From NCBI RefSeq assembly GCF_003330765.1, contig NZ_CP024903.1:2852001-2916000 (forward strand): a stretch of 64,000 nt of DNA. Direction: 5' to 3'. Origin of the DNA: Burkholderia pyrrocinia (GTDB lineage: Bacteria > Pseudomonadota > Gammaproteobacteria > Burkholderiales > Burkholderiaceae). The stretch's first letter is position 1, and each line of letters starts with the position of its first letter. Made by a program: the position numbers and the translations under genes. This document shows, piece by piece, positions 38,626 through 61,713 of the stretch. A model generated the notes under the pieces. It had not been told where the DNA came from and made no database searches. It saw nothing but the letters and a program-made list of their open reading frames with translations.

Positions 38626-39126
38626 CTAGACCGGCAGCACATGCGTCGACAGAATCTCCTTCAGCACCATGAATGACCGCACCTGCCGCACGCCCGGCAG
38701 ATAGATCAGTTGCTCCGCGTGCAGCCGGTTGAAGCTCTCGTTGTCGCGCGTGCGCACCAGCATGAAATAGTCGAACTCGCCGGTCACGACGTGGCATTCG
38801 ACACACCCCGACACCTTCTGCGCGGCCTTCTCGAACGCGGCGAACGCCTCCGGCGTCGAGCGGTCGAGCACGAAGCCGATCACGACGAGCATGCCGGCAC
38901 CGAGTGGCTTCGGGTCGAGCAGCGCGACGATCCCGCGAATCATCCCCATCTCCTTGAGCCGCTCGACGCGCCGCAGGCACGCCGGCGCGCTCAGCTTCAC
39001 CCTGGCAGCGAGGCTCACGTTCGAGATCGACGCGTCCTGCTGAAGCTGCCTGAGGATCGCGCGATCGATGCGATCGAGCGCGGGCGCGGCATCGGCCGGC
39101 GTCGACGATCTTCCACTTAATTTCAT
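38626..39126 (-). CDS. acdR: Lrp-family regulator of ACC deaminase (AcdR)
   Basis: 166 aa from ATG 39126, with GGAGG 8 nt upstream; ATG 39141 contains that site. HTH LDRIDRAILRQLQQDASISN then VSLAARVKLSAPACLRRVERLK, and RAM domain with CHVVTGEFDYFMLVRTRDNES. Divergent from acdS with a 198-bp gap, the standard acdR-acdS arrangement, in which the octamer activates acdS when ACC is present. The AT-rich stretch near 39185-39250 is the probable shared control region. Confidence 0.9.
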   Translation of the reverse strand: MKLSGRSSTPADAAPALDRIDRAILRQLQQDASISNVSLAARVKLSAPACLRRVERLKEMGMIRGIVALLDPKPLGAGMLVVIGFVLDRSTPEAFAAFEKAAQKVSGCVECHVVTGEFDYFMLVRTRDNESFNRLHAEQLIYLPGVRQVRSFMVLKEILSTHVLPV

Positions 39127-39324
39127 TGCGTCATCCTCCATTTTTTTGAATCCGAATTGCTTGATTGATGCGCGATTCGTTCCCAACGTAGGTCGACGAT
39201 ATTTATTTCGCAAGCTCATTTCTCGCCTGCATGCCTATCATTTTTTCATCGGGAGACGGCGTGCCGGCTCCTCCCGAGCGCACCGCTTCCCGTGCAACCC
39301 CTGCCTTTCCGGAGACACCATTCG

Positions 39325-40341
39325 ATGAACCTGCAACGCTTCCCCCGTTATCCGCTGACGTTCGGCCCGACGCCGATCCAGCCGCTCAAGCGCCTGAGCG
39401 CGCACCTCGGCGGCAAGGTCGAGTTGTATGCGAAGCGCGAGGACTGCAACAGCGGCCTCGCGTTCGGCGGCAACAAGACCCGCAAGCTCGAATACCTGAT
39501 CCCCGACGCACTGGCGCAGGGTGCGGACACGCTCGTATCGATCGGCGGCGTCCAGTCGAACCAGACGCGGCAGGTCGCGGCCGTCGCCGCGCATCTCGGG
39601 ATGAAATGCGTGCTCGTGCAGGAGCACTGGGTCAACTACGACGATCCCGTGTATGACCGCGTCGGCAATATCCAGTTGTCGAGGATGATGGGCGCCGACG
39701 TGCGGCTCGTGCCGGACGGCTTCGACATCGGCATTCGCCGCAGTTGGGAAGAAGCGATGGAAAGCGTGCGGCAGGCGGGCGGCAAGCCGTATCCGATTCC
39801 GGCCGGCTGCTCCGAGCATCCGCTCGGCGGGCTCGGCTTCGTCGGCTTCGCCGAAGAGGTGCGGCAACAGGAAACGGAACTCGGCTTCAAGTTCGACTAC
39901 ATCGTCGTGTGCTCGGTGACGGGCAGCACGCAGGCGGGCATGGTGGTCGGCTTCGCGGCGGACGGGCGCGCGAATCGCGTGATCGGGATCGACGCGTCCG
40001 CGACGCCGGAGAAAACGCATGCGCAGATCACGCGCATCGCGCGGCATACGGCCGAGCTCGTTGAACTCGGGCGCCGCATCGACGAGCAGGACGTCGTCCT
40101 CGACACGCGCTACGCCGGCCCCGAATACGGGCTGCCGAACGACGGCACGCTCGACGCGATCCGCTTGTGCGCGCGACTCGAAGGCATGCTGACCGACCCC
40201 GTCTACGAGGGCAAATCGATGCATGGAATGATCGACAAGGTGCGGCTCGGGGAGTTCGAGCCCGGCTCGAAGGTGCTGTATGCGCATCTCGGCGGAGTGC
40301 CGGCGCTGAGTGCGTACAGCGTCATGTTCCGGGACGGGTGA
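39325..40341 (+). CDS. acdS: 1-aminocyclopropane-1-carboxylate (ACC) deaminase
   Basis: 338 aa, exact family length, starting [23 protein letters not shown]-binding Lys51 in [11 protein letters not shown], and the two residues that separate true ACC deaminases from D-cysteine desulfhydrases are both present: Glu295 ([11 protein letters not shown]) and Leu322 (LYAHLGG). Converts the ethylene precursor ACC to 2-oxobutyrate and ammonia, a plant-association trait. The product could be oxidised by the orphan E1 upstream (34752). A diverged dead fragment of another copy lies at 52208. Confidence 0.97.
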
Positions 40342-40878
40342 CCGGCTGACGCGCACGGCATGCGTTTGCGGCGGCTGCACGTGCCGACGCACGCATGCCG
40401 GCCCGGAAAATCGCCCCGCGCCGCGCCGGCGGCACATCGCACCCGATCTCCCGCCGAAGTCGTCCCGATTCGACTCCTTCGCGCTGCGGCAATATGCGGC
40501 AGCCTCGCTCCCGAGGCCGGAGAAATAGCAGACTTGCCCGCCCGATTATTCGCGCCGATCAGACCCGTATCAAAGCATTCGTACGTGTACCAATAAATAC
40601 AAAGTCCATTTAATACACGTTCTATTTAAATCACATCCCCGCTTACCGAAAATTGACGCGTGTTTGTTGGGCTCGACGCGTCGCCTCCCACTGACCCGAG
40701 CATCGCTCGGTTTCCGGCAGATGCAATTCACGCAGCGCCTGCGATCGACCGATCGGGCAGGCGGCGTCTCATTTCATCGATTGTTTGCGTTGTCCGGCGC
40801 CCGCCCTCGTGGCGCGCAATCGCGTCCGGCAATCGGCTCGACGAACGCAAATCAAATCAATCGGCAGGGGAAGGGTTT
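40342..40878. other. Intergenic region between acdS and exopolysaccharide operon
   Basis: 537 bp. Arms CGGCATGCGT (40356-40365) and ACGCATGCCG (40391-40400) could form a hairpin after acdS. From about 40585 to 40635 the sequence is strikingly AT-rich for this DNA (ATAAATACAAAGTCC, TTTAATACACG, TATTTAAATCAC), the probable promoter/UP region of the exopolysaccharide operon. That leaves roughly a 240-nt leader before the first ATG. No gene is convincing here. Confidence 0.5.
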
Positions 40879-42294
40879 ATGAATACCGCATTCGAAGAAC
40901 GGCGAGCCGCCTCACCATCGGCAGCAGCGGGGCTGCTCGCGCGGATGTCGGATCTCGTTCTGATTGCATTCGGTGCAGCGGGAACAACATGGGTACTGCC
41001 GGGCCAAAGCGGCCATCACGCCGCCGAAGTGGCGCTCGTCGCCTGTGCCGCAACGTTCGCGATGGCGCTGTTTCCTGCATTGGGCATCTATCGCACGGCG
41101 CGCATGCGTTCGAAGTGCCGGGCCGCGCTCCGCATGTGCATCGCGTGGGGCCTGGCGCTGGCGTGCGCGACGCTCGTCATGCTCGCGCTGTACGGCGCGC
41201 GGTTCGCGTCGCCGCTCTGGCTTCTGTGCTGGGCGTCGACGAGCGGCGCCGCACTCGTCGCGGCGCGGCTCGTCGCCCGCACGACGCTCGACCGGATCAG
41301 CGGCGCCGGCGAGCGCGACCGTGCCGTGGCGATCGTCGGCACGGGCGTGCATTGCGCAGCGGTCCTCGAGCGAATCGCACTCGCGCCGCACGCCGGGTTT
41401 CGGGCCGTCGCCCTGCTTGACACCGCGTGCGCCGGGCAGCATGCGCGCGACGGCGTCCCGCTATTCGGCGATCTCGGCGCATTCGCGGCGCATGTACGCA
41501 CGCAGTCGATTCCCGAGGTGTGGATCGCGTTGCCGATTGCCGAAGAGCAGGCCGTACTGGCCGTCCTCGACGCGTTCCGACTCGATCTCGTCAACGTTCG
41601 CTTCATGCCCGACGTCAGCAAGCTCGCGCTCTTCGAAGGCGAAATGGTCGATCTGGTCGGCGCACCGGCCATCAACCTGGTCGCATCGCCGCTATCCGCG
41701 AGCGCACTGCTGCAGAAGGCCGTCTTCGACCGCATGTTCTCGGCGGCCGTGCTGGTCGGCATGGCGCCGCTGCTGCTCGCGATCGCCGTCGCGGTCCGGC
41801 TGTCGTCGAAGGGCCCCGTCCTGTTTCGACAACGCCGCAAGGGCGCGGACGGCAAGATCTTCACGATCTACAAGTTCCGGACGATGCGACTCCATGCCGA
41901 CGCCGATGGCCGCGTCCGGCAGGCGACGCGCGCCGATCCGCGCGTAACCCGGATCGGCGCGTTCCTGCGCCGCACGAGCCTCGACGAGCTGCCGCAGTTC
42001 GTCAACGTGCTGCGCGGCGACATGTCCGTCGTGGGGCCGCGCCCGCACGCGATCGAGCACGACACGCTGTACCAGAAGATCGTCGACGGCTACATCCATC
42101 GGTACCGCGTCAAGCCCGGCATCACCGGCTGGGCACAGATCAACGGCCTGCGGGGCGAAACGGATCGCATCGACAAGATGCAGCACCGCGTCGAGGCCGA
42201 TCTCCATTACCTGCGCAACTGGTCGTTCGCACTCGACATGCACATCGTTGTCGCCACCGCTACCCGCGGCTGGACGCACCGCAACGCGTACTGA
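40879..42294 (+). CDS. Undecaprenyl-phosphate sugar-1-phosphate transferase (WcaJ/BceB-like)
   Basis: 471 aa polyprenyl glycosylphosphotransferase. Four N-terminal membrane helices (about 20-125), a CoA-binding-like soluble domain ([19 protein letters not shown], about 150-260), one more helix ([26 protein letters not shown]) and the catalytic domain with [50 protein letters not shown] and [15 protein letters not shown]. It places the first sugar phosphate (probably glucose-1-P) on undecaprenyl phosphate. First gene of the operon; 49 bp before the OPX gene. Confidence 0.93.
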
Positions 42295-42343
42295 CCCAAC
42301 CGAGACGCGGCAGCACGGCGCCGCATCATTGAAAGGACTGCTT

Positions 42344-43492
42344 ATGAGAACCGCCATGATCGGACGGATCGGAAACGCGTGCCCGCGCGCCGTTCGCGTC
42401 GTGTTGCTGGCCACCGCCAGCCTTGCGCTGTCCGCCTGCGCATTCGCGCCCGGCATGCGCATGAGCGACGCACATCCCAGCGCCGCGAGCGCGGCCGACG
42501 ATGCGCCACGCTATGAGATGACGGAGATCGACGCCGCGCTCATTCATGCGCTGAAAGCGCAGGCGGCACGGCAACTGGCCACGCAGGCCGACCTGCTGGC
42601 CGCACCGCCCGGCGCATACCGGATCGGCCCGGGCGACGTGCTGCAGATCACCGTCTGGGACCATCCCGAGCTCGCGGCCGCGCAAGGCGCCGCCACGCAG
42701 AATGCGCCGCGTGCCGCCGATCCCGTCGCCGGCTTCGTGGTGGACCAGAACGGCGACCTGTCGTTTCCGTTCGCCGGCAAGGTGCCCGTCGGCGGGCTGA
42801 CCGCCGCCACCGCGCAGACCCGCATCGTCGCCGCCCTTGCCCGCGTGTATCGCGATCCGCAGGTGACGCTGCGCGTCGCGTCGTTCCGCTCGCAGCAGGT
42901 CTATATCGACGGCGAAGTCCGCACGCCGGGCGGCCAGCCCGTCAACGACGTGCCGATGACGCTCTACGAGGCGCTCGGCCGCGCGGGTGGGATGAGCCCC
43001 GCCGCCGACCAGAGCCGCATCGCGCTGGTGCGCGGCGGCGTCACCTATCCGCTCGACCTGACCCGGATGCTGCGGCATGGCCAGAATCCGGCCGACGTCG
43101 TGCTCGCGCCCGGCGACCTGCTGCATGTGCCGGCCCGCAACGAGTACGGCGTCTACGTGATGGGTGAAGTGAACAAGCCGTCGCTCGCGCTGCCGCTGCG
43201 CGACGGCCGTCTGACGCTGTCCGACGCGCTGTCGCAAGCCGGCAGCGTGAACGCCGGTACCGCCGACGCCGCGCAGATGTTCGTGATCCGCGGCTCGCAG
43301 ACGGGCAACCCGCAGGTGTTCCATCTCGACGCGCGTTCGCCCGTGTCGATGGTGCTGGCCAACGAATTCGAGCTGCAGCCCCGGGACATCGTCTACGTCG
43401 ACGGCAACAGCCTGGTGCGCTTCAGCCGCGTGCTGAGCCTGCTGCTGCCGGGCGTCAGCACCAGCGCCGCCGCCGCGCTCGCCGTCAAATGA
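42344..43492 (+). CDS. Outer-membrane polysaccharide exporter lipoprotein (OPX/Wza-like)
   Basis: 382 aa from ATG 42344 with AAAGGA upstream. Lipoprotein signal with lipobox LSAC, Cys32. PES (Poly_export) domain [20 protein letters not shown] (about 83-102) and two SLBB domains (about 180-330: [23 protein letters not shown]). Forms the outer-membrane ring that exports the polymer together with the BY-kinase encoded two genes on. The C-terminal stretch includes [18 protein letters not shown], the amphipathic barrel helix. Stop overlaps the phosphatase start. Confidence 0.94.
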
Positions 43493-43986
43493 GCGCCGCA
43501 ACCACGCTGGTTGTCGTCTGCATCGGCAACGTCTGCCGCAGCCCGATGGCGGAAGCGCTGTTCCGCGCGCGCCTGCCGGACGTCGACGTGCAGTCGGCCG
43601 GCCTCGGCGCGCTCGTCGGACAGCCGGCCGACCCGCACGCGGTCGCGCTGATGCGCGAGCGCGGCCTCGATATCGCCGCGCATCGCGCGCGCCAGTTGCC
43701 GGCCTGGCTCGCGACGCGGGCCGACCTGATCCTGACGATGGATTCCGGCCAGACGCGCGGGATCTCCCACCGCTATCCGCACCTGCGCGGCCGCGTGTTC
43801 CGGCTCGGCGACGGCGCGCCGCACGGCTTCGACGTGCCGGATCCGCATCTCGGCACGCGCGCGTCGTTCGAACGCAGCCTCGCGCTGATCGAACGCGGCA
43901 TCGCGGGCTGGTGCGCAAGGATCGCGCCGGACGCCCCGCCGGACGGCACCTCGCCGTCCGCTCCCTCACCCCGTCTTCCGGACTGA
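43489..43986 (+). CDS. Low-molecular-weight protein tyrosine phosphatase (BceD/Wzb-like)
   Basis: 165 aa. P-loop CIGNVCRS (Cys11-Ser18, CX5RS) near the N-terminus and the general-acid loop DVPDPH near residue 115. Removes phosphate from the C-terminal tyrosine cluster of the BY-kinase, allowing its cycling during polymer export. The C-terminal tail (about 148-165, [15 protein letters not shown]) is a short Pro/Ser-rich extension. Coupled to the OPX gene by a 4-bp overlap and followed 4 nt later by the kinase. Confidence 0.94.
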
Positions 43987-43990
43987 ATCG

Positions 43991-46288
43991 ATGACGTCAA
44001 TTTCTCCCCCTCTGCACGCGCGGGAACGCACCGACGAGATCACGCTGACCGGCGTGATCGACGTGCTCGTGTCCCATCGCTGGCTGATCGCGTGCGTGAC
44101 CGCCGCCTGCGTAGGCATCGGCACGCTGTATGCGTTTCTCAGCCATCCGCAATACCAGGCCGACATCCTCGTGCAGGTCGAGGACAGCGGCGACGCATCC
44201 GCCGCGAAAAGTCTGCTCGGCGACGTGTCGTCGCTGTTCGACGTCAAGTCGACCGCCGCCGCGGAAGCGCAGATTCTCTCATCGCGTCTCGTCGTCACGC
44301 GCGCCGTCGACGATCTGCGCAGCTATATCGTCGTGGGGCCGAAGCGCTTCCCCGTGGTCGGCGATTTCATCTCGCGCTTCAACATCGGCATCGCCCGCCC
44401 CGGCCTGCTCGGCATCGGCGGCTATGCGTGGGGCACCGAGCGCGCCGATCTGGCCCGCTTCGACGTGCCGCAACCGCTCGAAGGCGATCGCTTCGAGCTG
44501 ACGCTGCTCGACGCCGGGCGCTACCGGCTGTCCGGTTCCGCGCTGCCCGCCGCCGTCACGGGCCGGATCGGTCAGCCCGGACGCTTCGCGACCGCGAATG
44601 GCCCGATCGTCATCGACGTCGCTGGCATCGATGCGCACCCGGGCACCCGCTTCACGCTCGTGCGCCAGTCTCGTGCCGAGACGATCGACGCGTTCCGGCA
44701 TGCGCTCGACGTGCAGGAGAAGGTCAAGCAGTCCGGCGTGATCGTCGCGACGCTGCGCGGCCCCGATCCGCAGCGCGTGCAGGCGCAACTGAAAGCCATC
44801 GCGGACCACTACGTCCGCCAGCACATCGAGCGCCGCTCCGCGGACGCCGCGCAGTCGCTCGCGTTCCTCAACGCGCAGTTGCCCATGCTCAAGAAGCAGT
44901 TGCAGAAGGCCGAACAGCGCTACACGGACATGCGCAACGCGAACGGCGCGCTCGACCTGACCGAGGAAGCGAAGCTGATCCTGCAGCAAACCGCCGACGC
45001 GAAAACCCGCCGGCTGGAACTGCAGCAGAAGCGCGATGAAATGGCTTCCCGCTTCGCGCCAGGACATCCCGACATGGCCGCGCTCGACGCGCAAATCGCA
45101 ACGCTGCAACGCCAGCAGCAGGCATTCGACCGTCAGGTCCGGCGCCTGCCCGATCTCGAGCAGGATGCCGTGCGGCTGATGCTCGACGTCAAGGTCGATA
45201 CCGACCTCTACACGGCGCTGCTCGGCAACGCGCAGCAGCTCGAACTGGTCAAGGCCGGCCGAACCGGCAGCGTGCGGCTCGTCGACGCGCCGATCGTGCC
45301 CGAAGATCCGGTTCGCCCCAAGCGGCCGGTGGTGATCGCCGCCGCCGCGCTGTTCGGCTTGCTGTTCGGCACCGCGCTCGCGTTCGCGCGCGACTTCCTG
45401 TTGGGCGGCGTCGGCAGTGCCGACGAGATCGAACAGCATCTCGGCGTCAGCGTCTACGCAACGATTCCCGATTCGCCCGATCAGCGGCGCATCGCCCGGC
45501 AAATGGCCGCGCACGCGCCGGGGCCGCACCTGCTGAGCACGCTGGCGCCGCACGATCCGGCGATCGAGAGCCTGCGCAGCCTGCGCACCGCGCTGCGCTA
45601 TGCGATGCAGGACGCGAGCAACAACGTGCTGCTGCTGAGCGGCCCCGCGCCGGGCGTCGGCAAGTCGTTCGTGGCCGCGAACTTCGCGGCGCTGCTCGCC
45701 GCGAACGGCACGCGCGTGCTGCTCGTCGACGGCGATCTGCGCAAAGGCTATCTGCATGAGTATTTCGGCGTCGCACGCGAGCGCGGCTTTGCCGAGCTGG
45801 TATCGGGCATGGCCGAGCCGCAGGACGTGATTCACGCGAACGTTGCGCCGAACCTCGATTTCATCGCGACCGGTGCGTTGCCGCCGAATCCCGCCGAAGC
45901 GCTCGTCCATCAACGGGTCGATGCATCGATCGGCCTGCTGTCGGCGCGCTACGACGCGGTGGTGATCGACTCCGCGCCGATTCTCGCCGTCACCGACGCG
46001 GTCGTGCTCGGCCGTCGCGCGGGCGCCGTGCTGCTCGTCGCCCGCGCCGGCTCGACGCGCCTCGCCGAGCTCGACGAAGCGGCCCGCCGCCTCGCGCACA
46101 ACGGCATCGCCGCGCGCGGTGTGCTGCTCAACGGCGTCGCGCCGCACACCGGGCGCTACGGCGCGCGCGACGGCGCGTATCGCTACATGCAATACGACTA
46201 CGCACCGCGCCACGGCGCGACAGATTCGTCGTCCAGAAGCAGGCTGCGCGCGCTCGCGGCGCGCATGCGTCGCGGAGGTGCGCGATGA
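43991..46288 (+). CDS. Polysaccharide co-polymerase with BY-kinase domain (Wzc/BceF-like)
   Basis: 765 aa. N-terminal Wzz domain with TM1 (WLIACVTAACVGIGTLYAFL, about 36-55), a long periplasmic coiled coil (about 270-400), GNVR-type region and TM2 (VVIAAAALFGLLFGTALAF, about 448-466). Cytoplasmic kinase: Walker A GPAPGVGKS (about 551), A' LLVDGDLRKGY, B VVIDSAP (about 657). C-terminal Tyr cluster with five Tyr in about 17 residues (RYGARDGAYRYMQYDY, about 720-738). It sets chain length and gates export in a phosphorylation cycle with the preceding phosphatase. Confidence 0.95.
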   Translation: MTSISPPLHARERTDEITLTGVIDVLVSHRWLIACVTAACVGIGTLYAFLSHPQYQADILVQVEDSGDASAAKSLLGDVSSLFDVKSTAAAEAQILSSRLVVTRAVDDLRSYIVVGPKRFPVVGDFISRFNIGIARPGLLGIGGYAWGTERADLARFDVPQPLEGDRFELTLLDAGRYRLSGSALPAAVTGRIGQPGRFATANGPIVIDVAGIDAHPGTRFTLVRQSRAETIDAFRHALDVQEKVKQSGVIVATLRGPDPQRVQAQLKAIADHYVRQHIERRSADAAQSLAFLNAQLPMLKKQLQKAEQRYTDMRNANGALDLTEEAKLILQQTADAKTRRLELQQKRDEMASRFAPGHPDMAALDAQIATLQRQQQAFDRQVRRLPDLEQDAVRLMLDVKVDTDLYTALLGNAQQLELVKAGRTGSVRLVDAPIVPEDPVRPKRPVVIAAAALFGLLFGTALAFARDFLLGGVGSADEIEQHLGVSVYATIPDSPDQRRIARQMAAHAPGPHLLSTLAPHDPAIESLRSLRTALRYAMQDASNNVLLLSGPAPGVGKSFVAANFAALLAANGTRVLLVDGDLRKGYLHEYFGVARERGFAELVSGMAEPQDVIHANVAPNLDFIATGALPPNPAEALVHQRVDASIGLLSARYDAVVIDSAPILAVTDAVVLGRRAGAVLLVARAGSTRLAELDEAARRLAHNGIAARGVLLNGVAPHTGRYGARDGAYRYMQYDYAPRHGATDSSSRSRLRALAARMRRGGAR

Positions 46289-47532
46289 GCGACCGGATCG
46301 ATCTCGACGCCATCCAGCGCGCCGGCACCAGCCCTGTCGCGCCCACACCGGCCGTGCGCACCGTGCGCCGCACCGGCGCCCTGCCCGCGCGTCGGCTGCG
46401 CATCGTGCTCGTCGCCGAAGCCGCGGGTGGCGGCGTGGCCGTCCATCTCGCCAGCCTGATCGACGGGCTGAGCGCCGATGACAACGTCGAGCTGCATCTC
46501 GTCGTGCCGCACGGGCCGCGCTTCGACACATCGATACTCGATGCGCGCGTGCTCGCGCATTGCCGCTCGGTGCACGCGGTGCCGATGCGGCGCGCGGTCG
46601 GCTGGCGCGACGCGCTGGCCGTCGCGCACCTGTATCGCCATCTGCTGCGCATCCGGCCCGACATCGTGCACAGCCACAGCTCGAAGGCAGGCGCCATCGC
46701 GCGGCTGTGCGCGGGGCCGTGGCGGCAAGTCTATACGCCGCACGCGGTGTATACGCTCAATCCGTCGCTGAGCGATCGGCAGCGCCGCGTCTACGGCGCG
46801 ATCGAGAGCATGCTCGGCCGCCTGCGCACGAGCCGGATCGTCGCGGTGTCGCGCGACGAGGCCGATCATCTGCATGACGCACTCGGCATTCCGACGCGGC
46901 GCATCGACACGATCGTCAACGGCGTGCCGCCGCCGGCCCTGATGCCGCGCGACGACGCGCGCTGCGCACTCGGCGTCGCGGGCAACCCGCTCGTGATTGG
47001 CTTCGTCGGGCGCTTCGATCACCAGAAAGGCGTCGACCGCCTCGTGCGAATCGCGCGCGGCGTCTACCGGCAATGCGGCGCCGACGTGCAGTTCGTCGCG
47101 ATCGGCCCCGGCGATTTCGCGGCGGCGGCAGGCCGCGACGCCGATGACCTGTCGCCGAACCTGCGCGTCGTCGGCGCGCTGGCGCGCGCGAACCGCTACT
47201 TCTCCGCATTCGACCTGTTCGCGCTGCCGAGCCGCTACGAAGGCTTTCCGTATGTCTGCCTCGAAGCGATGGCGGCCGGCGTGCCGATCGTCGCGTCGCA
47301 CGTTGCCGGCGCGGCCGAGCTGATCCGCGCCCGCGAGATCGGGGTCGTCGTGCCGAACGACGACGATACGACCGATTTCAAGCACGCCGTCGTCACGCTC
47401 GCGCGCGACGCCGCGTTGCGCGGCGCGATGCGTGCGAATTGCGCGCCGGCCGCCCGGCACTACTCGGCGGACGCGATGGTCCGCCAGACGCTCGACCTCT
47501 ATCTCAGCCTCGTTCCCAGGAAGACGACATGA
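46285..47532 (+). CDS. GT4-family glycosyltransferase
   Basis: 415 aa, GT-B fold. N-terminal acceptor domain with AEAAGGGVAVHLASLIDGL (about 40-58) and the HSHSSKAGAIARL block (about 130). C-terminal donor domain with FVGRFDHQKGVDRLV (about 236-250) and the EX7E-type signature region LPSRYEGFPYVCLEAMAAGVPIVAS (about 312-336). The N-terminal 30 residues are poorly conserved. It adds a sugar to the lipid-linked precursor; it is the only dedicated glycosyltransferase in the locus. Overlaps genes on both sides by 4 bp. Confidence 0.93.
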   Translation: MSDRIDLDAIQRAGTSPVAPTPAVRTVRRTGALPARRLRIVLVAEAAGGGVAVHLASLIDGLSADDNVELHLVVPHGPRFDTSILDARVLAHCRSVHAVPMRRAVGWRDALAVAHLYRHLLRIRPDIVHSHSSKAGAIARLCAGPWRQVYTPHAVYTLNPSLSDRQRRVYGAIESMLGRLRTSRIVAVSRDEADHLHDALGIPTRRIDTIVNGVPPPALMPRDDARCALGVAGNPLVIGFVGRFDHQKGVDRLVRIARGVYRQCGADVQFVAIGPGDFAAAAGRDADDLSPNLRVVGALARANRYFSAFDLFALPSRYEGFPYVCLEAMAAGVPIVASHVAGAAELIRAREIGVVVPNDDDTTDFKHAVVTLARDAALRGAMRANCAPAARHYSADAMVRQTLDLYLSLVPRKTT

Positions 47533-48686
47533 CCTCGCCCACCCATGTGGCGCTGCTGCATGCGTACAGCGCTCGCAATTCCGGGGACGGCCTGCTGGTC
47601 GACCTCTCCATCGCGCTGCTGAAGGAAGCCTTCGGCGACGCGATCCGTGTATCGATCGTCGCCGCCGACCCGGCGTCGTTCCCCGCGTACGCCGACGTGC
47701 GTGCGGCACCCGTACTCGCGGAACACGGCACGAGCCGCCTGATCGGCGCGGCGAGCGCCGCGTTGCCGGTTTCCGCGAACGCGCGGCTGGCCGGTTTGCG
47801 CCGCCTGCTCGCTAGCGTCGACTTGATCGTCGGCGTCGGCGGCGGCTATCTGCGCGCGCGCGATTCCGTCGAAGCGCTGAAGCTCGAGGCCGGCCACCTG
47901 CTGCAGATGCGCGCGGCATACGCATCGAGCAAGCCGACCATCTACCTGCCGCAAAGCATCGGCCCCGCGCGATGCGCAGCGCCGGTCGCCGCGCATCTGC
48001 GGCACCTGCTCGCGTCGTTCGATTGCGTATTCGTGCGCGACGACCGGTCGGCCGCGTTCCTTGCCGCCAATCCGAACACGCGGCGCGCGCCCGATCTTGC
48101 CGTGCTCGACTTCGAGCACCGCCGCGACGCGATCCTGAGCCGCGCGGCCCTACGCAGCGACGGCGAGGTCCGCCATGTCGCCTTCGTGCTGCGCCGCGCG
48201 CCGGGCTGGAACCGTGCGCAACGGATGCGTTACGCGACGTCGATCGCGCGGCTCGTCGCACAGATCGGCGCGGCCTGTCGCGTCAGCTTCGCAGTGCAGA
48301 GCACGGGCCGCGGCAACGACGACGTCGCGTACTACCGCAGCATCGGCATCCGGGACACGCTCGTTCCGCTCAGGATCCTGCTCGACACGGACACGCCGGA
48401 CCGCGTGATTTCCGTGCGCCTGCACGGCGCGCTCGAATCGGTGCTGCACGGCGTCCCCGCGTTCCATCTCAGCTACGAACGCAAAGGCTTCGGCGCCTAT
48501 GCGGACCTGCGACTCGACGACTGGGTCGTCAACGGCGCCGACTTCGATCCGGACGCCGTCGCACGCACCGTGCTCGCTCCCGACGCCGCGGCCGCGTTCT
48601 GGCAGACCGCGCAAACGGGTTTCGAGCAGATCCGTATCGGCCGCGCACGCGTGATCGCCGCGCTGCGCGCGGCACGCGCCGCCTGA
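47529..48686 (+). CDS. Polysaccharide pyruvyl transferase family protein
   Basis: 385 aa from ATG 47529, overlapping the glycosyltransferase stop. PF04230 hallmarks: HAYSARNSGDGLLVDLSIALL (about 10-30), YLPQSIGPA (about 138), FVRDDRSAAFL (about 168) and RLHGALESVLHGVPAFHLSY (about 297-316). Transfers pyruvate from phosphoenolpyruvate to form a ketal on a hexose, giving the polymer a negative charge. Some family members instead act as general GT-B-like enzymes, so pyruvylation is likely but not certain. Confidence 0.9.
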   Translation: MTSPTHVALLHAYSARNSGDGLLVDLSIALLKEAFGDAIRVSIVAADPASFPAYADVRAAPVLAEHGTSRLIGAASAALPVSANARLAGLRRLLASVDLIVGVGGGYLRARDSVEALKLEAGHLLQMRAAYASSKPTIYLPQSIGPARCAAPVAAHLRHLLASFDCVFVRDDRSAAFLAANPNTRRAPDLAVLDFEHRRDAILSRAALRSDGEVRHVAFVLRRAPGWNRAQRMRYATSIARLVAQIGAACRVSFAVQSTGRGNDDVAYYRSIGIRDTLVPLRILLDTDTPDRVISVRLHGALESVLHGVPAFHLSYERKGFGAYADLRLDDWVVNGADFDPDAVARTVLAPDAAAAFWQTAQTGFEQIRIGRARVIAALRAARAA

Positions 48687-48704
48687 CACCTACCGGAATC
48701 ACGC

Positions 48705-49982
48705 ATGCTCATTCGACTTCTGCTCCGCTTCTCCGCGCTGGGCCTGAAATTCGGGCTCGCGATCGTCGTCGCGCGCATGCTCGGCTTCGACGCGGTTGCC
48801 GCCTACGGAATCGCGGTCGCCGCGTCCGTGATCGCGTCGAAGGTACTCGGGCTCGGCTTCAGCACCGAACTCAACCGCCGGCTCAGTGCTCGCAATCCGC
48901 TACCCGCGATCGGCAGGGCACGCACGCTGTGCGGCGTGTTCGCCGGCCTTTACCTGCTGGCCGTGCTGGCGCTCGGCGCTGCGGGCGGGGGCGCCGCGCA
49001 TGTGCTCGGCATCCCGACGTCGCTCCTGTGGGGCGTGCTGCTCGTCGCGCTTTCCGAGCATGCCGCATTCGAGGCCAACGCGTGGCTATTCTCGCTGCAT
49101 CGCCCCCGGGCCGGCTCGCTGCTGCTGTTCGTTCGCACCGGCGCATGGGCCGGCCTCGCGTGCGCAGGGCTGCTTGCCGGCGTCCTACACTCGATCGAGG
49201 CCGTCTTCGCCCTCTGGTTCGCGAGCAATGCACTGGCCGTCGCCGTGTGCTGGCGCAGTCTCGCCGCGCTCATGCGCCGTGCGCCGCATGCCGCGCGGGC
49301 GGATCGCGCGCCAGGACTGCACGACCTGTTCGCGGTGTGGCGGCACGGTCTGCCGTTCTATCTGGCTGGCGTGCTGCTGTCGTCGCTGCAATACGCGGAA
49401 CGCTTCATCGCCGGCGGCCTCGCGAGCACCGATGCGCTCGGCCGCTACGTGTTCGCGTGGTCGATCGCGAATGCCGTGCAGACGATCGCGTTCTCGGCGA
49501 TCGCCGTCACGGCCGGGCCCCGCTTCGTGCGAACACTCGCCGCCGATCCCGCCGCATTCGGCCGGCAGTTGCGTCGCGCGCTAGCGGCGGCCGTGGGCGT
49601 CACCGCGCTTGCCGCCGTGGCGATTCTTATCGTGCACGACGAACTGTTCCGGCTCGCGCACGAGCAGGCTGGTACGCGCGAGGTCGCCGTGCTGGCCGTG
49701 CTGCTGGCGTCGTTCGCGTTGCGCTCGGCCGCCGATGTGCTGTGGACGGCCGCGATCGCGTTGCGCGCGGGCCTGGCCGTCACGCTGTCGATGGCCGCCG
49801 TCGCGGCCGCATGGGCACCGCTTGCGTGGCATCTGATCGGGCATGCGGGCACGACGGGCGCAGCGCTTGCACATCTGGCAGCCAGCGTCGGCATCGTCGC
49901 GGCCCTCGCGCTGATCGTCGCGCGCGGCGCGCGAACGCATGCCGTCACACCGCGTCGGGAGGGCCTGTCCGATGCTGCGTAA
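48705..49982 (+). CDS. Oligosaccharide flippase (Wzx-like)
   Basis: 425 aa, almost entirely hydrophobic, with about 12 helices; N-terminal LIRLLLRFSALGLKFGLAIVVARMLG is typical of the polysaccharide-biosynthesis/MATE-like flippases. The middle holds a short charged cytoplasmic loop (about 195-215). Moves the lipid-linked repeat unit across the inner membrane. Starts 18 nt after the pyruvyltransferase and overlaps the next gene by 11 bp. Confidence 0.88.
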   Translation: MLIRLLLRFSALGLKFGLAIVVARMLGFDAVAAYGIAVAASVIASKVLGLGFSTELNRRLSARNPLPAIGRARTLCGVFAGLYLLAVLALGAAGGGAAHVLGIPTSLLWGVLLVALSEHAAFEANAWLFSLHRPRAGSLLLFVRTGAWAGLACAGLLAGVLHSIEAVFALWFASNALAVAVCWRSLAALMRRAPHAARADRAPGLHDLFAVWRHGLPFYLAGVLLSSLQYAERFIAGGLASTDALGRYVFAWSIANAVQTIAFSAIAVTAGPRFVRTLAADPAAFGRQLRRALAAAVGVTALAAVAILIVHDELFRLAHEQAGTREVAVLAVLLASFALRSAADVLWTAAIALRAGLAVTLSMAAVAAAWAPLAWHLIGHAGTTGAALAHLAASVGIVAALALIVARGARTHAVTPRREGLSDAA

Positions 49983-51111
49983 CCTGCTCGTCGCGGGCCC
50001 GCCACTCAGCCGCGCGCTGATACGCGCGATCGCTACCGCGACCGTGCTCGTCTACTGGGGCATTTACGCAAAGGCTGGCACGTTTCTGCCGGAGTTCGTC
50101 TTTCGCGACGCGGAAAAGATCCAGAGCCAGATTGGCGGCTCGAATACCTACGATGGCACGTCGTTCGACGCGGTCGCCCGGTTCTACGCGATGCTCGGCG
50201 AAACCGGCACACACCTGTTCGTGGCGACGATCGGCGCGCTGTGCATCTGGCGCATGATCGGCCACGGCACGCGCGTCGGGTCGATGGCGGCGTGTCTCGT
50301 CCTGCTCGCGCCCTGCGTGTTCTTCAACCTGTTCGTCGCGAGCAAGGACACGATCGTCGTATTGATGGCCATCGTGCTGGCCGGCATCGCGCAGCGCCGC
50401 CCGACCGCCGTCTTGTTCGTCGCCGCCGTGATGCTCTATGTAGGCTATGCGGTGTTCGTGCGCAGCTACTTCGCGCTGGTCCTCGCGATCGCGCTCGTCG
50501 CATTGCTGTTCAGGCATATGTCGTGGCGCGGCAAGGCATGGCTGACGCTCGCGGTACCCGCCGTGCTGTTCCTGGTGCCGCCCGACGCGTACTACCTGCT
50601 GCAGCACCCGCGCGACATGGCCGCCGACTACCTCGCGTACGGCTCGCCGTTCGGCGCGCGCACCAGCTTTCGCAATCCGATGGAGCCGACCTCGTTCGCG
50701 GCCTTCTGCGCGAACTATCTGTATGCGGTGCTGCGGCTGAACCTGCCGGCGATGTTCATGCCGGGGCCGAAGGAGATCGTCATGCAGATGTTCGTGTGGA
50801 TCGCGCTCGCGTCGGTATGGCGCCGCACGCGCGGCGCCGGCCGGGCGCGCGAACTGCTCGCCTGCCTCGTCATCGGGCACGTCGCCGTATCGATGCTGTT
50901 CGAGCCCGACCTCGGCAGCTACACGCGCCACCTGTCGAGCGTGGCGCTGCTGTGCGCGATGCAGTTCGCCGGAATCGGCCCGCGCGCCGATCGATCGCGC
51001 CCGACGCCCCACTACCGGGGCGATGCGCATGCGCAAGCTGCCGAAGATGCAACGGCCCGGTCGCGCCTTGCCGCTGCCGGCCCGCGACACGTCGACCGAG
51101 CCCCGACATGA
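49972..51111 (+). CDS. Multi-spanning membrane protein, candidate polysaccharide polymerase (Wzy)
   Basis: 379 aa from ATG 49972. About ten membrane helices with one large loop (about 45-75, FRDAEKIQSQIGGSNTYDGT) and a hydrophilic C-terminal tail of some 45 residues (IGPRADRSRPTPHYRGDAHA...). Sequence similarity of Wzy proteins is too low for recognition, but the locus encodes initiation, flippase, OPX and co-polymerase and no other polymerase, so this is the only candidate. The tail reads into the acyltransferase start (ATGA) and is of unusual, low-hydrophobicity composition. Confidence 0.7.
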   Translation: MLRNLLVAGPPLSRALIRAIATATVLVYWGIYAKAGTFLPEFVFRDAEKIQSQIGGSNTYDGTSFDAVARFYAMLGETGTHLFVATIGALCIWRMIGHGTRVGSMAACLVLLAPCVFFNLFVASKDTIVVLMAIVLAGIAQRRPTAVLFVAAVMLYVGYAVFVRSYFALVLAIALVALLFRHMSWRGKAWLTLAVPAVLFLVPPDAYYLLQHPRDMAADYLAYGSPFGARTSFRNPMEPTSFAAFCANYLYAVLRLNLPAMFMPGPKEIVMQMFVWIALASVWRRTRGAGRARELLACLVIGHVAVSMLFEPDLGSYTRHLSSVALLCAMQFAGIGPRADRSRPTPHYRGDAHAQAAEDATARSRLAAAGPRHVDRAPT

Positions 51112-52193
51112 ACACGCTCTCGCAGCGCCAGACCGTGTTCAGCAACATTCAGCGCGCACGAGCGGTGGCAGCGCTCGCGGTTGTCGGCTACCACATGCAC
51201 GTGCTGCCGTTCGGGCAGAACGGCATCGACGTGTTCTTCGTCATCGGCGGCTTCATCATGTCGTGCGCAGCGCCGCGCGAGGGCCGTGCATTCCTCGGCA
51301 AGCGGCTGATCCGCATCGTGCCGCTCTATTGGCTGACGACGCTCGGCGTCTATGCGATCGCAGTGCTGCGTCCGCAATGGCTGAACACGACGACGGCGGG
51401 GCTGGACTACCTCGTGAAGTCGCTGTTGTTCGTCCCCTACGTCGACGACAGCGGCCACCGCGGCCCGCTGAATCCAAACGGATGGACCCTCGAATACGAG
51501 ATGCTGTTCTATCTCGCAGTCGCGGCATCGCTGCGGTTTGTGCGGGCCCGTTACGCGACCGCGCTCGCCGCGTTGCTGCTCGCGCTCGTCTGCGTGACCC
51601 TGGGCGCGACGGGCGCGACCGTCGTCGCGGCGCATCCCGGGATGCCGCTCATGCTGGAATTCGGACTCGGCGTGCTGGCCTACTGGACGCTGGAAACCGG
51701 TATCGGCAGCCGGATCGCCGCCTCCGTCTGGGCGGCGCTCGCCGCCGCGAGCGTCGCGGCGCTCGCGCTGCTCCCTGCCCTGCACGACGTGCCGTCCGGC
51801 TTCGCGCGCGTGGCCGGCTGGGGTGGCCCGGCATGCGTGCTGATCGTCTCGCTCGTCGCACTGGAGCTGCACGGCCGAAAGATCGCGAACCGGCTCGCGA
51901 TGGCGCTCGGTGCCGCCAGCTATTCGATCTATCTGATCCATCCTTTTGTGATCGGCATCGCGGGCAAGATCATCGGGGCGCGCGCCGATCTCGGCACCTC
52001 GTCCGGGATCGCCGTCACATTCGCTTGCCTCGTCGCGATCTGCGCAAGCGGCTTCGCCTGCCATGTCTGGATCGAAAAACCCATGCTTGCAATGCTTGAT
52101 CGATGGTTCAGGCGTGTGCGGCCGGCGAGGGATCCGTCATGGCATCCGGTCCAAGGCAATCCGCAGCACGCCGTGAGCAAATCGTATGTGTGA
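51108..52193 (+). CDS. Acyltransferase 3 family protein
   Basis: 361 aa from ATG 51108. Arg-x10-His motif in [21 protein letters not shown] (about 14-34), then [14 protein letters not shown] (about 38-51) and about ten helices; the [15 protein letters not shown] block (about 124) is a family hallmark. Adds acetyl or other acyl groups to the lipid-linked repeat or growing polymer. Last gene of the exopolysaccharide operon. Its C-terminal residues ([20 protein letters not shown]) run up to the acdS relic 15 bp on. Confidence 0.9.
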
Positions 52194-52207
52194 CACGCGA
52201 TCATCAA

Positions 52208-52920
52208 GCTGGGTCAATTACTACGACGCCGTCTACGATCGCGTCGGCAACATCGAGATGTCGCGGATCATGGGCGTCGACGTGCGGCTCGCGCCAGACG
52301 GCTTCGACATCGGCATCCGCCCGAGCAGGGAAAACGCGCTGGAGAGCATGCCACGCGCGGGCGGCAAGCCATATCCGATTCCGGCCGGATGCTCGGAGCA
52401 CCCGCTCGCGGCCTCGGTTTCGTCGGCTTCGCCGAAGAAATGCGGCAACAGGACGCGGAACTCGGCTCCAAGTTCGACTACATCGTCGTGTGCTCGGTGA
52501 CGGGCAGCATGCAGGCGGGGGATGGTCGTCGGCTTCGCGGAGGACGAATCCCCGACCGCATGATCGGCATTGATGCATCCGCGACGCCGTAGAAAACGCA
52601 CGAACAGATCACGCGGATCGCTCGCCATACCGCCGAGCGGGTCGGTCTCGGGCGGCATCGACGAGAAAGACGTGACCCTCGACACGCGCTACGGCTGCCC
52701 CGAATATGGCTTGCCGAACAATGGCACGCTCGAGGCGATCCGGCTGTGCGCGCGGCTCGAAGGTGTGCTGACCGACCCGGTCTACGAAGGAAAGTCGATG
52801 CACGGGATGCTCGACAAGGTACGGCCCGGCGAATTCGAACCGGGCTCGAAGGTACCGTACGCATCTGGGCAGCGTGCCGGCGTTGAGCGCTTACAGCTTC
52901 ATTTTCCGCGACGGCTGAAG
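52208..52920 (+). pseudogene. Frameshifted 3' fragment of a second ACC deaminase gene
   Basis: From 52208 the DNA aligns with acdS codons for about residue 111 to the end ([20 protein letters not shown] at the start; GRP/EFEPGSK and the final FHFPRDG-like end). It needs at least four frame changes (near 52408, 52520-52545, 52650 and 52860) and has an in-frame TAG near 52590 where the intact gene has GAG. The first third is absent. Roughly four bases in five match the live acdS at 39325 by eye, so this is an old or foreign copy rather than a fresh duplication. Same strand as acdS. Confidence 0.9.
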
Positions 52921-52946
52921 CCCAACGCCCGGCGATGGGGAAAGCA

Positions 52947-52981
52947 GTGAAGCGGGGCAGCAGCATCGCCGTCCGCTTCAC
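52947..52981 (-). terminator. Hairpin after the fimbrial operon
   Basis: GTGAAGCGG (52947-52955) and CCGCTTCAC (52973-52981) form a 9-bp stem just past the adhesin stop codon; on the minus strand it is followed by TGCTTT. Probable terminator of the fimbrial transcript. Confidence 0.5.
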
Positions 52982-52989
52982 GAATCCGG

Positions 52990-54057
52990 TCAGTTGTACT
53001 CGAGAATGTAGGTCAGCGTGGCATCCGCCCGGCCAGCCTTGATCTCGCCGCCGCTAGCGGCGTAACTGGCCTTGCCCCGGAATCGATACAGTTCGCTATC
53101 GGCGCCACTGGAGGTCCAGGTAGTCCTCAGCGCCCGCTCCTTGGCAAACGGCAATGCGACGCCGCTGCTGTCGGTCAGTGCGACACCCACACCCTGAGCC
53201 TTGCCCGCCTGACCTTGCCCGCCCGTGAGCAGCATGCCGTCGCGCGGCGAATTGCCTGCGAAATAGATCTTCACCGCCGGCTTCGTGGTCGGATTCATGC
53301 CATCGCAGCGGATGTCCAGCGAAAAATCCTGTTGCGTCACGTTTCCCTTCTTGAGGTCCCCAATGGCGACTCGCCCCAGATCGACGGTAGGCGGCAGCGC
53401 CGGGTTATAGCAACTCGTGTAGTAGAAGTTCTGTTGCAGCGTGGTCGTCAACTGCGTGCCCGTGATGGAAATACGGGTCTTCGGGTTGGTGGCGATGTGA
53501 AAGTGGGTACTCAAATTGAACGGCGTCATGCTGCCCTTTCCCACCTCCATCCCGGTGCGGATGAACTCGACGCGCATCCTGTTGGCGAACGGGTTGGGAA
53601 TGGTCGGCCCCGAGGACTCGCGGTCGAAGGGCGGAAGGATGGGGGTCATCCAGTTGCCGAGGCTCGACATGAAGCTCAACCGAATGCCGACGCCGGTGAC
53701 GCCGCTTTCGTAGATCATCTTGCTCGCATCCTGCAGCGGCAGCGTGGTCACCAATGCGTCCATGCCCCAAAGGTCGCCTCGATCGCAATTCCACAACGGG
53801 GTTCTGTCGTAGACGACAACGTCATAGGCGGCCATCACTGCGCCAATGGCGACGGCCTTCAGCGTGGTGGTGGCCGGCAACGCCGCGACTTGTACCTGGG
53901 AAGGCGGCTGGAGCCCGTTCATCACACACGTGGCCCGGGCCTGCACGCTCCAGCCACCCCAGAACAGCAGCATGCCCCATAGCATCGCCGTGCGAAGCCG
54001 TGCCATGCCCTGCCTCGACATGCCGGAGCGGTATTGGATATTGGTTTGACTATGCAT
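52990..54057 (-). CDS. Fimbrial tip adhesin (two-domain, FimH-like)
   Basis: 355 aa with an N-terminal export signal (the hydrophobic run AMLWGMLLFWGGWSVQARA near 24-42; the true start may be Met13 or Met18). About residues 45-200 form a variable lectin-like domain with Cys pair candidates (TCVMNG, WNCDRGD). The C-terminal half is a pilin domain: FSLDIRCDGM, VALTDSSGVALPFA and the chaperone-binding beta-strand ending LTYILEYN. Length and two-domain layout fit tip adhesins of chaperone-usher pili. Last gene of the operon; receptor unknown. Confidence 0.85.
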   Translation of the reverse strand: MHSQTNIQYRSGMSRQGMARLRTAMLWGMLLFWGGWSVQARATCVMNGLQPPSQVQVAALPATTTLKAVAIGAVMAAYDVVVYDRTPLWNCDRGDLWGMDALVTTLPLQDASKMIYESGVTGVGIRLSFMSSLGNWMTPILPPFDRESSGPTIPNPFANRMRVEFIRTGMEVGKGSMTPFNLSTHFHIATNPKTRISITGTQLTTTLQQNFYYTSCYNPALPPTVDLGRVAIGDLKKGNVTQQDFSLDIRCDGMNPTTKPAVKIYFAGNSPRDGMLLTGGQGQAGKAQGVGVALTDSSGVALPFAKERALRTTWTSSGADSELYRFRGKASYAASGGEIKAGRADATLTYILEYN

Positions 54058-56736: not shown

Positions 56737-57453
56737 TCAACTAGCGGTGGTTCCGTCGTGGGGCTCGACGGCGCCGTAGTCGTTGATCGATTCGAAGTGA
56801 ACCTTGGCACCCGCGGCAGCGGCGCTGCCCGGCAGATCCTTGACATCGAAATTGCGTGTGGCGGACGGCGGCACCATCTCGGCCGCCGCGGCATAATCCC
56901 GGCCGCCGCTTTGCACCTTGACCGAAGCCAGCGATACATGGAAAGCCGACGGATTGCTCACTTCGAGCTGCGCCTTGCCGCCGCGATTGACGAGGCGCCA
57001 GCGAAGCTGCGCAGGTGCGCTCTCCACCTTGCCGGGCAGGCCGGCAGGCCGGTAGAAGAACTTGATGCGCTGACGCACGGCAATCTGCAGCGTGTTGTCG
57101 CCCTTGGACTTCTGCGGGATCTCCTGCACATTGAGCCAGAACGCCGACTCGCGATCGGTGGGCAGGCCCTGACCGTAGTAGAGAACGCGCAGCGTCTGCT
57201 GCTTCTCGCCGCCCAGGCGGCTGAGCGTCGGCGTGATGACGAACGGCACGTCCGCCTTCTCGTCGTTCGGATCCATCCACGTCTGGATCATGACGTCGGC
57301 CGGCGCGCGGTTCCGGACCATTAGGGACGCCTCCTTGCTCGGCGCGGCCAGCACGACGCGGGTTCCGTCGAGCGTGATGCCGGCGAGCGAGGCGCCCGAA
57401 GACAGCAATAGCGAGCCGGCCAGGGCCAGCCCGGCAAAGTGGAAGCGTTTCAT
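56737..57453 (-). CDS. Periplasmic fimbrial chaperone (FimC/PapD family)
   Basis: 238 aa with signal peptide (FAGLALAGSLLLSSGASLA). Ig-like domain 1 begins GITLDGTRVVLAAPSKEASL and contains the conserved Arg/Lys pocket (TRV..., QIAVRQRIKFFYRP). FVITPTLSRLGGEKQQTLRVLY is the F1-G1 region that donates a strand to subunits. Domain 2 about 150-230. Longer than most because of a C-terminal extension (PHDGTTAS). Follows the pilin gene after a hairpin. Confidence 0.93.
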   Translation of the reverse strand: MKRFHFAGLALAGSLLLSSGASLAGITLDGTRVVLAAPSKEASLMVRNRAPADVMIQTWMDPNDEKADVPFVITPTLSRLGGEKQQTLRVLYYGQGLPTDRESAFWLNVQEIPQKSKGDNTLQIAVRQRIKFFYRPAGLPGKVESAPAQLRWRLVNRGGKAQLEVSNPSAFHVSLASVKVQSGGRDYAAAAEMVPPSATRNFDVKDLPGSAAAAGAKVHFESINDYGAVEPHDGTTAS

Positions 57454-57507: not shown

Positions 57508-58101
57508 TTACTCGTAGGTCAGCGTGAAAGGCAGCGTGCCGTTGGCGGTACCGGCAGCGATTTCGTTGCCATTCGCCACGTAAGCAGCGCGCAGCGCCAG
57601 GTTGGCCGTGTAGATCGGAGCTTCGGCCGTGCCGCCTTGGACCAGCGGTGCGTCGAACGTCTCGTTGGCGTTCAGGTTCAGCAGCGTGCCCGCCGTGCTG
57701 TAGATACCGATGCCCACGCCCGTGGCGGTACCGGTGACTTGCAGCAGCTTGTTGTTCTTGCCGTCCACTCCCGAACCACCAGCCGGATCGAAACGAACCT
57801 TGACCGAGCTCAGGCCCTTGCCGGTCGCACCGCAATCGAGGTTGAGGTTGATCGCAGTACCGGCCGCAATGCCGCCGCCGGCGGTGCCGGCCAGCGTATC
57901 CGCGCTGACCTTGCCCAGCTTGACGTCGATGGACTGGCCACCCTTGCTGCCGGTGACGGACGTCCCGTTACCGCCGGTAATGGCGCACGATGCGGCGACG
58001 ATCTCACCCGTAAAGTTGATGGTGCCGTCTGCAGCCATCGCGCTGCTTGCTGCCAGTGCGACCGCTGCTGCGATAGTCATTTTCTTGATGTTGATTGCCA
58101 C
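57508..58101 (-). CDS. Major fimbrial subunit (FimA-like pilin)
   Basis: 197 aa from a GTG start at 58101 with GGAG 6 nt upstream; ATG 58080 is an alternative. Signal peptide ending SSAMA, mature start ADGTINFTGEIVAASCAITG. The Cys pair (ASCAIT and LDCGAT, about 39 and 90) forms the pilin disulfide. C-terminal NGTLPFTLTYE is the chaperone-recognised strand with penultimate Tyr. The chain is Gly/Ala/Thr-rich with no charged patches, as expected of an abundant structural pilin. First gene of the operon. Confidence 0.94.
   Translation of the reverse strand: MAINIKKMTIAAAVALAASSAMAADGTINFTGEIVAASCAITGGNGTSVTGSKGGQSIDVKLGKVSADTLAGTAGGGIAAGTAINLNLDCGATGKGLSSVKVRFDPAGGSGVDGKNNKLLQVTGTATGVGIGIYSTAGTLLNLNANETFDAPLVQGGTAEAPIYTANLALRAAYVANGNEIAAGTANGTLPFTLTYE

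Positions 58102-58671: not shown

Positions 58672-61713
<3,042 letters not shown>

Follow-up and report, generated by a model that had tools for sequence, protein, structure and literature searches.

The window analysed here is a stretch of 64,000 nucleotides (nt) of Burkholderia pyrrocinia (contig NZ_CP024903.1, positions 2,852,001 to 2,916,000; host genome of 8.0 Mb in three contigs), in which the plant-growth and plant-hormone gene acdS is followed by an exopolysaccharide (EPS) operon, by a truncated second acdS and by a convergent tract of fimbrial and sensor kinase genes. An earlier note, made from the sequence alone, had described a complete acdS, a nine-gene EPS operon (40879-52193) and, after a gap of 15 bp, an acdS fragment in the same orientation; all of these are confirmed, the complete acdS at 39325-40341 and the fragment at 52209-52918. 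The features are given below; unless stated otherwise, the EPS genes were assigned by Pfam and NCBIfam and the genes of the fimbria-kinase tract by Pfam, and G numbers denote the genomes of the genus set.

38626..39219, minus strand: Lrp/AsnC-type regulator (Pfam AsnC_trans_reg and HTH_AsnC-type), the constant left neighbour of acdS, which from its position we take to be acdR-like
39325..40341, plus strand: live acdS, complete (NCBIfam TIGR01274, 646 bits against a cut-off of 392)
40564..40766, plus strand: wcaJ upstream sequence, common to other EPS loci (blastn)
40879-42294, plus strand: wcaJ-like undecaprenyl-phosphate glucose phosphotransferase
42338-43492, plus strand: wza
43489-43986, plus strand: wzb (low-molecular-weight phosphatase)
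43991-46288, plus strand: wzc
46285-47532, plus strand: GT4
47529-48686, plus strand: pyruvyl transferase
48705-49982, plus strand: wzx-like, with a hit below the Pfam cut-off (24.4 of 28.2 bits)
49939-51111, plus strand: open reading frame (ORF), wzy by position only
51108-52193, plus strand: acyltransferase
52194..52208, plus strand: EPS-fragment junction of 15 bp, a non-homologous join as read from the sequence
52209..52918, plus strand: acdS fragment, a 5'-truncated pseudogene of apparent outer type, corresponding to nt 303-1017 of acdS
52919..52989, no strand assigned: 3' flank of the putatively foreign acdS, between the convergent EPS and fimbria genes
52990..54057, minus strand: fimbrial tip adhesin with an MrkD-like and a fimbrial domain (68% to G010)
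54105..56612, minus strand: fimbrial usher (87% to G010; 84-86% to G062, G032, G061 and G023)
56737..57453, minus strand: fimbrial chaperone (93% to G010)
57508..58101, minus strand: major fimbrial subunit (92% to G010)
58672..61674, minus strand: hybrid sensor kinase with HisKA, HATPase and receiver domains and Hpt just under its cut-off, presumably BvgS-like
61755..62429, minus strand: LuxR-type response regulator, rr (88% to G010, 82-86% to near relatives)
63098..64000, continuing to 66157 beyond the window, minus strand: second sensor kinase with receiver, HK2 (Pfam and the test of tree topologies described below)

The fragment covers 715 of the 1017 nt of acdS (70%), in keeping with the last two thirds of the gene claimed before, and the position of its acdS stop codon (52916-52918) places its end at 52918 and not at 52920. 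The earlier estimate of one differing base in five is corrected to about one in six, as the fragment and the live gene are 83-84% identical (E 9.5e-215). Several frameshifts had also been noted, and the comparison with the nearest live allele (G022) indeed reveals five indels, namely deletions of 1, 1, 2 and 2 nt and one insertion of 1 nt. Furthermore, 23 private nucleotide states that occur in no live allele were found, 19 of them at codon positions 1-2, as compared to 3, 0 and 1 in three live control alleles. The fragment is a decayed pseudogene, and chance is excluded as its source. It is also the only strong second copy of acdS in its own genome, the other two matches spanning 38 and 43 bp (40 of 467 candidates scored).

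The affinity of the fragment was addressed using a genus search set of 65 genomes, comprising the window's own and 64 others, with one genome per species and the window's species represented by a single strain. An acdS match was present in 63 of them and absent in G016 and G040, which stand outside all counts. In a tree of acdS nt 303-1017, from which the three long rows G036, G038 and G042 and the outgroup rows were excluded, the fragment forms a group with G022 and G062 (support 96/80). By the approximately unbiased (AU) test, its placement as sister of the live acdS was rejected (p-AU 0.001), and its placement inside the near-relative clade of 15 rows was rejected as well (p-AU 0.003). A separate acdS tree with five outgroup rows placed it among the outer species. 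The fragment carries the outer state at three of three sites where 15 near alleles show fixed differences from 4 outer ones, and single comparisons (outer:near) favour the outer state for G022 (7:1), G059 (8:3) and G048 (8:5), with the highest identity to G022 (88%). By these alignments the fragment would belong to the acdS type found in G022 and related genomes, and neither G010 nor G006 appears to be its source. Thus, the tree of the fragment against acdS alleles suggested in the earlier note does separate the fragment from the live gene, but places it with the outer G022 and G062 and not with the resident near-relative type. A recombination scar derived from the acdS of another lineage is the best reading of the fragment.

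The left flank has the opposite affinity. The live acdS lies inside starred sets of 10, 13 and 15 near-relative rows in the acdS trees, and in an affinity scan along the window and its right flank (500-bp steps against 13 genomes) aceE, lrp and acdS have 80-95% DNA identity to near species, equal to or above that to outer species in most steps. Judged by these comparisons, lrp and aceE, like the live acdS, appear to be of near-relative type, and the live acdS would represent the resident gene and the left shoulder of the variable region. Hence, the recombination scar with a foreign acdS postulated in the earlier note is retained as a scar derived from another lineage, while its polarity would best be reversed, as the fragment itself is outer and the live acdS near-relative. 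Likewise, with the live acdS, lrp and aceE near-relative and the fragment and kinases outer, there is no support for reading the scar as the distal border of an EPS cassette that came in with a new acdS and left the resident one behind.

To the right of the fragment, outer affinity continues through both kinases. DNA identity to G010 is 77-94% over the fimbrial genes, 73-90% over the first kinase at 58.8-61.8 kb (near species 64-84%) and 86-90% at 64.3-66.3 kb, as compared to 70-80% in near species. The BvgS-like kinase is 78% identical to G010 and 60-62% to ten near relatives; the LuxR-type regulator is not discriminating when taken alone (88% versus 82-86%). Grouping of the window with nine near relatives was rejected for the HK2 and rr proteins (p-AU 0.003). 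The right border is located beyond the window, in flanking sequence of the same genome: similarity to G010 stops at 66312 and near-species similarity resumes at 66690-66714, with 89-97% identity over the next 1.5 kb. Beyond it, the window is placed for D67-D70 in a starred set of 21 rows without G010, G022, G047, G059 and G063, and its grouping with G010 was rejected (p-AU 8e-5). According to these trees and identities, both kinases would be of outer type up to ~66.3 kb, HK2 being the final gene of this tract, and near-relative type would resume with the genes from 66.7 kb onwards. The kinases may, by their position, regulate the fimbriae. Upstream of the pilin gene, the interval 58100-58670 has lower G+C (0.556 over 58001-59000) and is shared in part by G010 only among the fetched loci.

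At the left junction, a search of the fetched loci with 52180-52215 gave a best match of E 0.03, located in aceE-side sequence, and border queries, with up to 14 hits listed each, revealed no repeat common to the two borders apart from a pairing of 19 bp (E 0.55). Behind the fragment, the first 36 bp of 52919..52989 resemble the 3' flank of the live acdS in G010 (blastn, 78% over 55 bp, of which ~20 bp are the acdS end; E 1.7e-6). Such a sequence stands in G010 right behind the live acdS (~36 bp past the stop), and a second such flank (67 bp, 75%) precedes an intact fimbrial operon, with a decayed fimbria-kinase copy in between. As far as gene order can tell, this layout would fit the expected donor type, with these fimbriae directly behind acdS. 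The 3' flank of the fragment also contains a hairpin (52947-52981), whose fold (z -1.39) is not significant as compared to shuffled sequences, and a bidirectional terminator behind the fragment was hence dropped. Scans of the window remained near the shuffle level for promoters (one promoter-like site versus a mean of 0.8) and for terminators (nine terminator-like sites versus a mean of 6.0, standard deviation 3.3).

The fragment and the two kinases are outer in affinity, both flanks are near-relative and the left junction is non-homologous. We propose, with a probability of roughly 0.55, that a block of ~14 kb was imported and joined behind the resident acdS-EPS, with the fragment as its left end. 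The block would have contained the acdS 3' part, the fimbrial operon, the BvgS-like kinase, the response regulator and the second kinase, would have come from an unsampled outer Burkholderia lineage with this fimbrial operon directly behind acdS, and would have replaced whatever stood between the resident acdS-EPS and the genes starting at 66.7 kb. Its right end was probably joined by homologous recombination at 66.3-66.7 kb, and its left end, broken in the donor acdS, would have attached non-homologously at 15 bp from the end of the last EPS gene, so that the overall mode would be homology-facilitated illegitimate recombination. The left junction indeed lacks homology, and the switch of affinity within 66.31-66.69 kb fits homologous joining, with no crossover seen directly. 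From this arrangement we infer a single event and its direction, the inclusion of the fimbriae, the donor and the mode of DNA uptake.

Several observations weigh against this proposal. Regarding the fragment, single comparisons with G062 (5:6), G047 (3:5), G010 (2:6) and G006 (2:9) favour the near state, the acdS tree with the outgroup has poor resolution at its base, and the fragment forms a long pseudogene branch. No single donor fits either, the fragment being nearest to G022 (88%) and the fimbriae and kinases to G010. Within the tract, G061 equals or exceeds G010 in four of eight 500-bp steps from 54.3 to 58.3 kb, and the near relatives G061, G032 and G023 carry these fimbriae near acdS with usher identities of 84-86%; hence an outer origin is not evident from the fimbriae alone. 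In the kinase region, G034 ties G010 at 61.3 kb, G022 (highest, 89%) and G032 are above G010 at 61.8 kb, at 62.8-64.3 kb G010 is no closer than others and no genome stands out, and the placement of HK2 and rr with G006 and G010 is not starred (80/99). In G061, moreover, the order acdS-EPS-fimbriae-kinases is that of the window, with near-relative kinases and no fragment detected, and therefore fimbriae can reach the place behind EPS by other ways. Finally, the EPS operon has its highest identity to the outer G006, so the import could have included EPS. An usher piece was also observed between EPS and fimbriae in G061 (L093, L113).

The same final mosaic would be obtained in two steps, if an outer acdS-fimbria-kinase block had first replaced the region cleanly, and a near-relative lrp-acdS-EPS segment had later recombined in the left flank, its right end joining inside the earlier acdS and leaving the fragment. 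The near-relative live acdS and lrp fit a donor from a closely related strain, and EPS alleles do move between species. However, such a history requires an additional clean import, and in G010 the decayed fimbria-kinase block stands next to acdS with the intact one distal, as would be expected from the addition of new blocks on the right-hand side, although this argument is weak, as decay is not age; overall we regard two steps as unlikely. Alternatively, an outer lineage in which the scar was already present could have supplied EPS, fragment, fimbriae and kinases in one import, which would be in line with G006 being among the nearest relatives of both the window's EPS and HK2. This too is rather improbable, since no fragment was found in G006, whose acdS is not the nearest to the fragment, and the window's EPS is at most 79% (DNA) or 74% (protein) identical to any operon compared.

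Tandem duplication of the window's own acdS with decay of one copy would account for the same orientation and neighbouring place of the two copies, but is very improbable and was set aside, given the rejected sister relation (p-AU 0.001) and the outer affinity that goes on in the neighbouring kinases to 66.3 kb. Islands inserted in gene ends likewise have a complete gene on one side and a 3' piece on the opposite side, which would suggest a site-specific integrative element with acdS as attachment site. Such an element is scarcely credible with a fragment of 710 bp that is 16% diverged from the live gene, and with remnants elsewhere that cover different acdS parts, though two start at the same base. 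No integrase was present among the 19 proteins scanned, no border repeat exceeded chance and no tRNA was found in the window, the scan covering the window only and the 66.3-kb border lying beyond it; site-specific insertion was set aside accordingly. As compared to these alternatives, import of an acdS-fimbria-kinase block from an outer lineage remains the preferred reading.

The region behind acdS was compared in 62 loci with a full acdS, the window included, a stretch having been fetched for each of the 62 matching relatives and extending unequally from 3 to 75 kb downstream of acdS; G039, with only a 3' piece of acdS at the locus, is outside these 62. The left shoulder is nearly constant, with 62 full acdS and 60 full and no partial lrp copies. 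The next recognised element behind acdS is the EPS family, a relative or a remnant in 16 loci (15 within 0.7 kb), a BvgS-like kinase/regulator in 13, D66-D71 genes in seven and aceE in one, and nothing was recognised in 12, two of which had only ~5 kb. Loci in which acdS is followed by fimbriae or by a different polysaccharide cluster, which the earlier note proposed to look for, were indeed observed: four have chaperone-usher fimbriae and nine a different Wza/Wzc cluster on the other strand, the latter at a near-constant distance of ~7.5-9.1 kb behind acdS. A surface cluster or remnant thus stands next to acdS in 29 of the 62 loci. By this comparison, the region behind acdS appears to be an exchange site for Burkholderia surface-structure gene clusters. 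Of the exchangeable cassette anchored in acdS that had been postulated, the exchange site is supported by the variation among the 62 loci and by discordant EPS alleles, while arrival of EPS together with the fragment is not demonstrable. Regarding the cases that the earlier note named as refuting, other species have EPS at most 0.7 kb behind acdS, and no acdS fragment was found there; a second observation of this kind is the G062 remnant described next.

Remnants of acdS, always in the direction of acdS, occur in four other species (G062, G032, G005 and G039). The G062 remnant (nt 818-1017; L094 11725-11923) adjoins fimbriae of the same family as in the window but represents a different acdS part, and the stretch fetched for G062 contains no EPS of this kind; the remnant is 96% identical to the acdS of G059 and 91.5% to its own live gene. 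B. ubonensis LMG 20358 carries the same remnant as G062, 95.5% identical to the acdS of B. stagnalis LMG 28156. The remnant of G032 (nt 193-419) is flanked on one side by the 3' end of a second copy of EPS and on the other by this fimbrial family, and it carries the outer state at four of four fixed sites. The strongly decayed remnant of G005 (nt 818-1017; L199 ~19782-19979, minus strand) is of near-relative type and lies beyond a different polysaccharide cluster. In both G062 and G005 the remnant begins at nt 818 of acdS, and a few bases to the left of the break are shared, which may reflect either coincidence or a preferred breakpoint. In G039 (L072), only the last 109 bp of acdS stand before EPS, probably as a leftover of its own acdS, and a divergent acdS match (76%) is found on another contig. 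A control filter for partial copies (at least 60% protein identity) revealed three of acdS, five of bvgS, four of D66, three each of usher and D67, two of HK2 and one each of aceE, wzc, wzy, act3, rr, D68 and lysE, with none in the fetched stretches for lrp and 13 other genes, including D69-D71, lrp2, azlC and surE. The filter missed the fragments of the window and of G032, the wcaJ piece of G059 and the act3 piece of G045. The whole region is littered with gene debris, and acdS is not unusual in leaving remnants.

The nine open genes of the EPS operon (ORFs; Pfam and NCBIfam) probably correspond to a Wzx/Wzy type; the initiating phosphotransferase, Wza and Wzc all exceed curated family cut-offs, and the gene in the Wzy position had no family hit in the Pfam and NCBIfam scans. 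The predicted product is most likely a pyruvylated, acylated polymer made and exported by the Wzx/Wzy route. A full EPS operon is present in the fetched stretch of 15 of the 62 loci, and in 13 loci besides the window, plus one remnant, the distance from acdS to EPS is at most 0.7 kb; the operon nearest to that of the window among those compared is from the outer G006, at up to 79% (DNA) and 74% (protein). The wcaJ upstream sequence (40564..40766) has matches of 69-84% identity, each over part of the stretch (blastn, 14 hits listed), and occurs also behind acdS in G022 and G059, loci without a full EPS operon there. Likely EPS remnants behind acdS are the N-terminal third of wcaJ in G059 (46% identical), 55 acyltransferase residues in G045 (50% identical) and an operon cut in wzc in G047. 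Because of these remnants and of the upstream sequence in G022 and G059, the EPS family is probably old at the acdS site and was lost more than once. In addition, G027 and G056 are sisters in acdS (99/96) and in HK2 and rr (100/99), but forcing them together in the EPS tree of 16 genomes was rejected, with a log-likelihood lower by 666. As far as these trees indicate, EPS alleles move between species, conflicting strongly with the phylogeny of the flanks. A second Wza/Wzc-type gene pair, 68-71% identical in DNA, was observed in the window's own genome (G000:C3:83180-86700).

Polysaccharide loci of the cps or O-antigen type are exchanged between conserved flanks, with variable surface genes and alleles discordant with the flanks. 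The acdS site shares with them the conserved shoulder, the variable surface content and the allele-flank discordance, but differs in that the shoulder is acdS and the content adds fimbriae, at least two types of polysaccharide cluster and kinase/regulator genes. A tentative generalisation, in which we place somewhat less than even confidence, is that acdS serves as a genus-wide recombination shoulder for surface structures in Burkholderia, with fimbria blocks travelling with the acdS 3' end and broken pieces recording donors. A mechanism akin to homology-facilitated illegitimate recombination, which was reported at low frequency in E. coli conjugation (PMC3240628), has been proposed for displacement arrays in type VI secretion system clusters of V. 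cholerae (PMC5361080). As described there, incoming modules are anchored by homology at one end and by an illegitimate join at the other, with displaced genes and a 3' end remaining, as is proposed here; they are effector-immunity modules, whereas here surface operons are concerned, the scar is in a metabolic shoulder gene and the presumed homologous end is on the far side. Regarding the polysaccharide, Wza and Wzc homologues, glycosyltransferases, a flippase-type transporter and an acyltransferase are common to the window's EPS operon and the Bep cluster of B. cenocepacia (Bcam1330-1341; PMC3584217), whose 12 ORFs are distributed over both strands and include a manC-type gene. The window's operon differs from the Bep cluster in having nine genes on one strand, a WcaJ-type initiator, a low-molecular-weight phosphatase and a pyruvyl transferase.

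By title, no acdS-flanked EPS or fimbria locus was found among the matches listed in a literature search, which does not establish its absence from print, and a term search of the main text of a study of acdS evolution (PMC4048297, as far as available) returned none of polysaccharide, exopolysaccharide and fimbria. The present analysis names a site at which Burkholderia species appear to swap polysaccharide and fimbria clusters, in the window together with the adjoining sensor kinases, and suggests dead acdS pieces as indicators of the direction of exchange. Such fragments could also mislead surveys that use acdS as a marker gene. To the right of the window, at ~75.8-87.3 kb (G000:C2:2927800-2939300), ~11 kb with several long ORFs have no substantial match in 13 relatives and likely represent another insertion.

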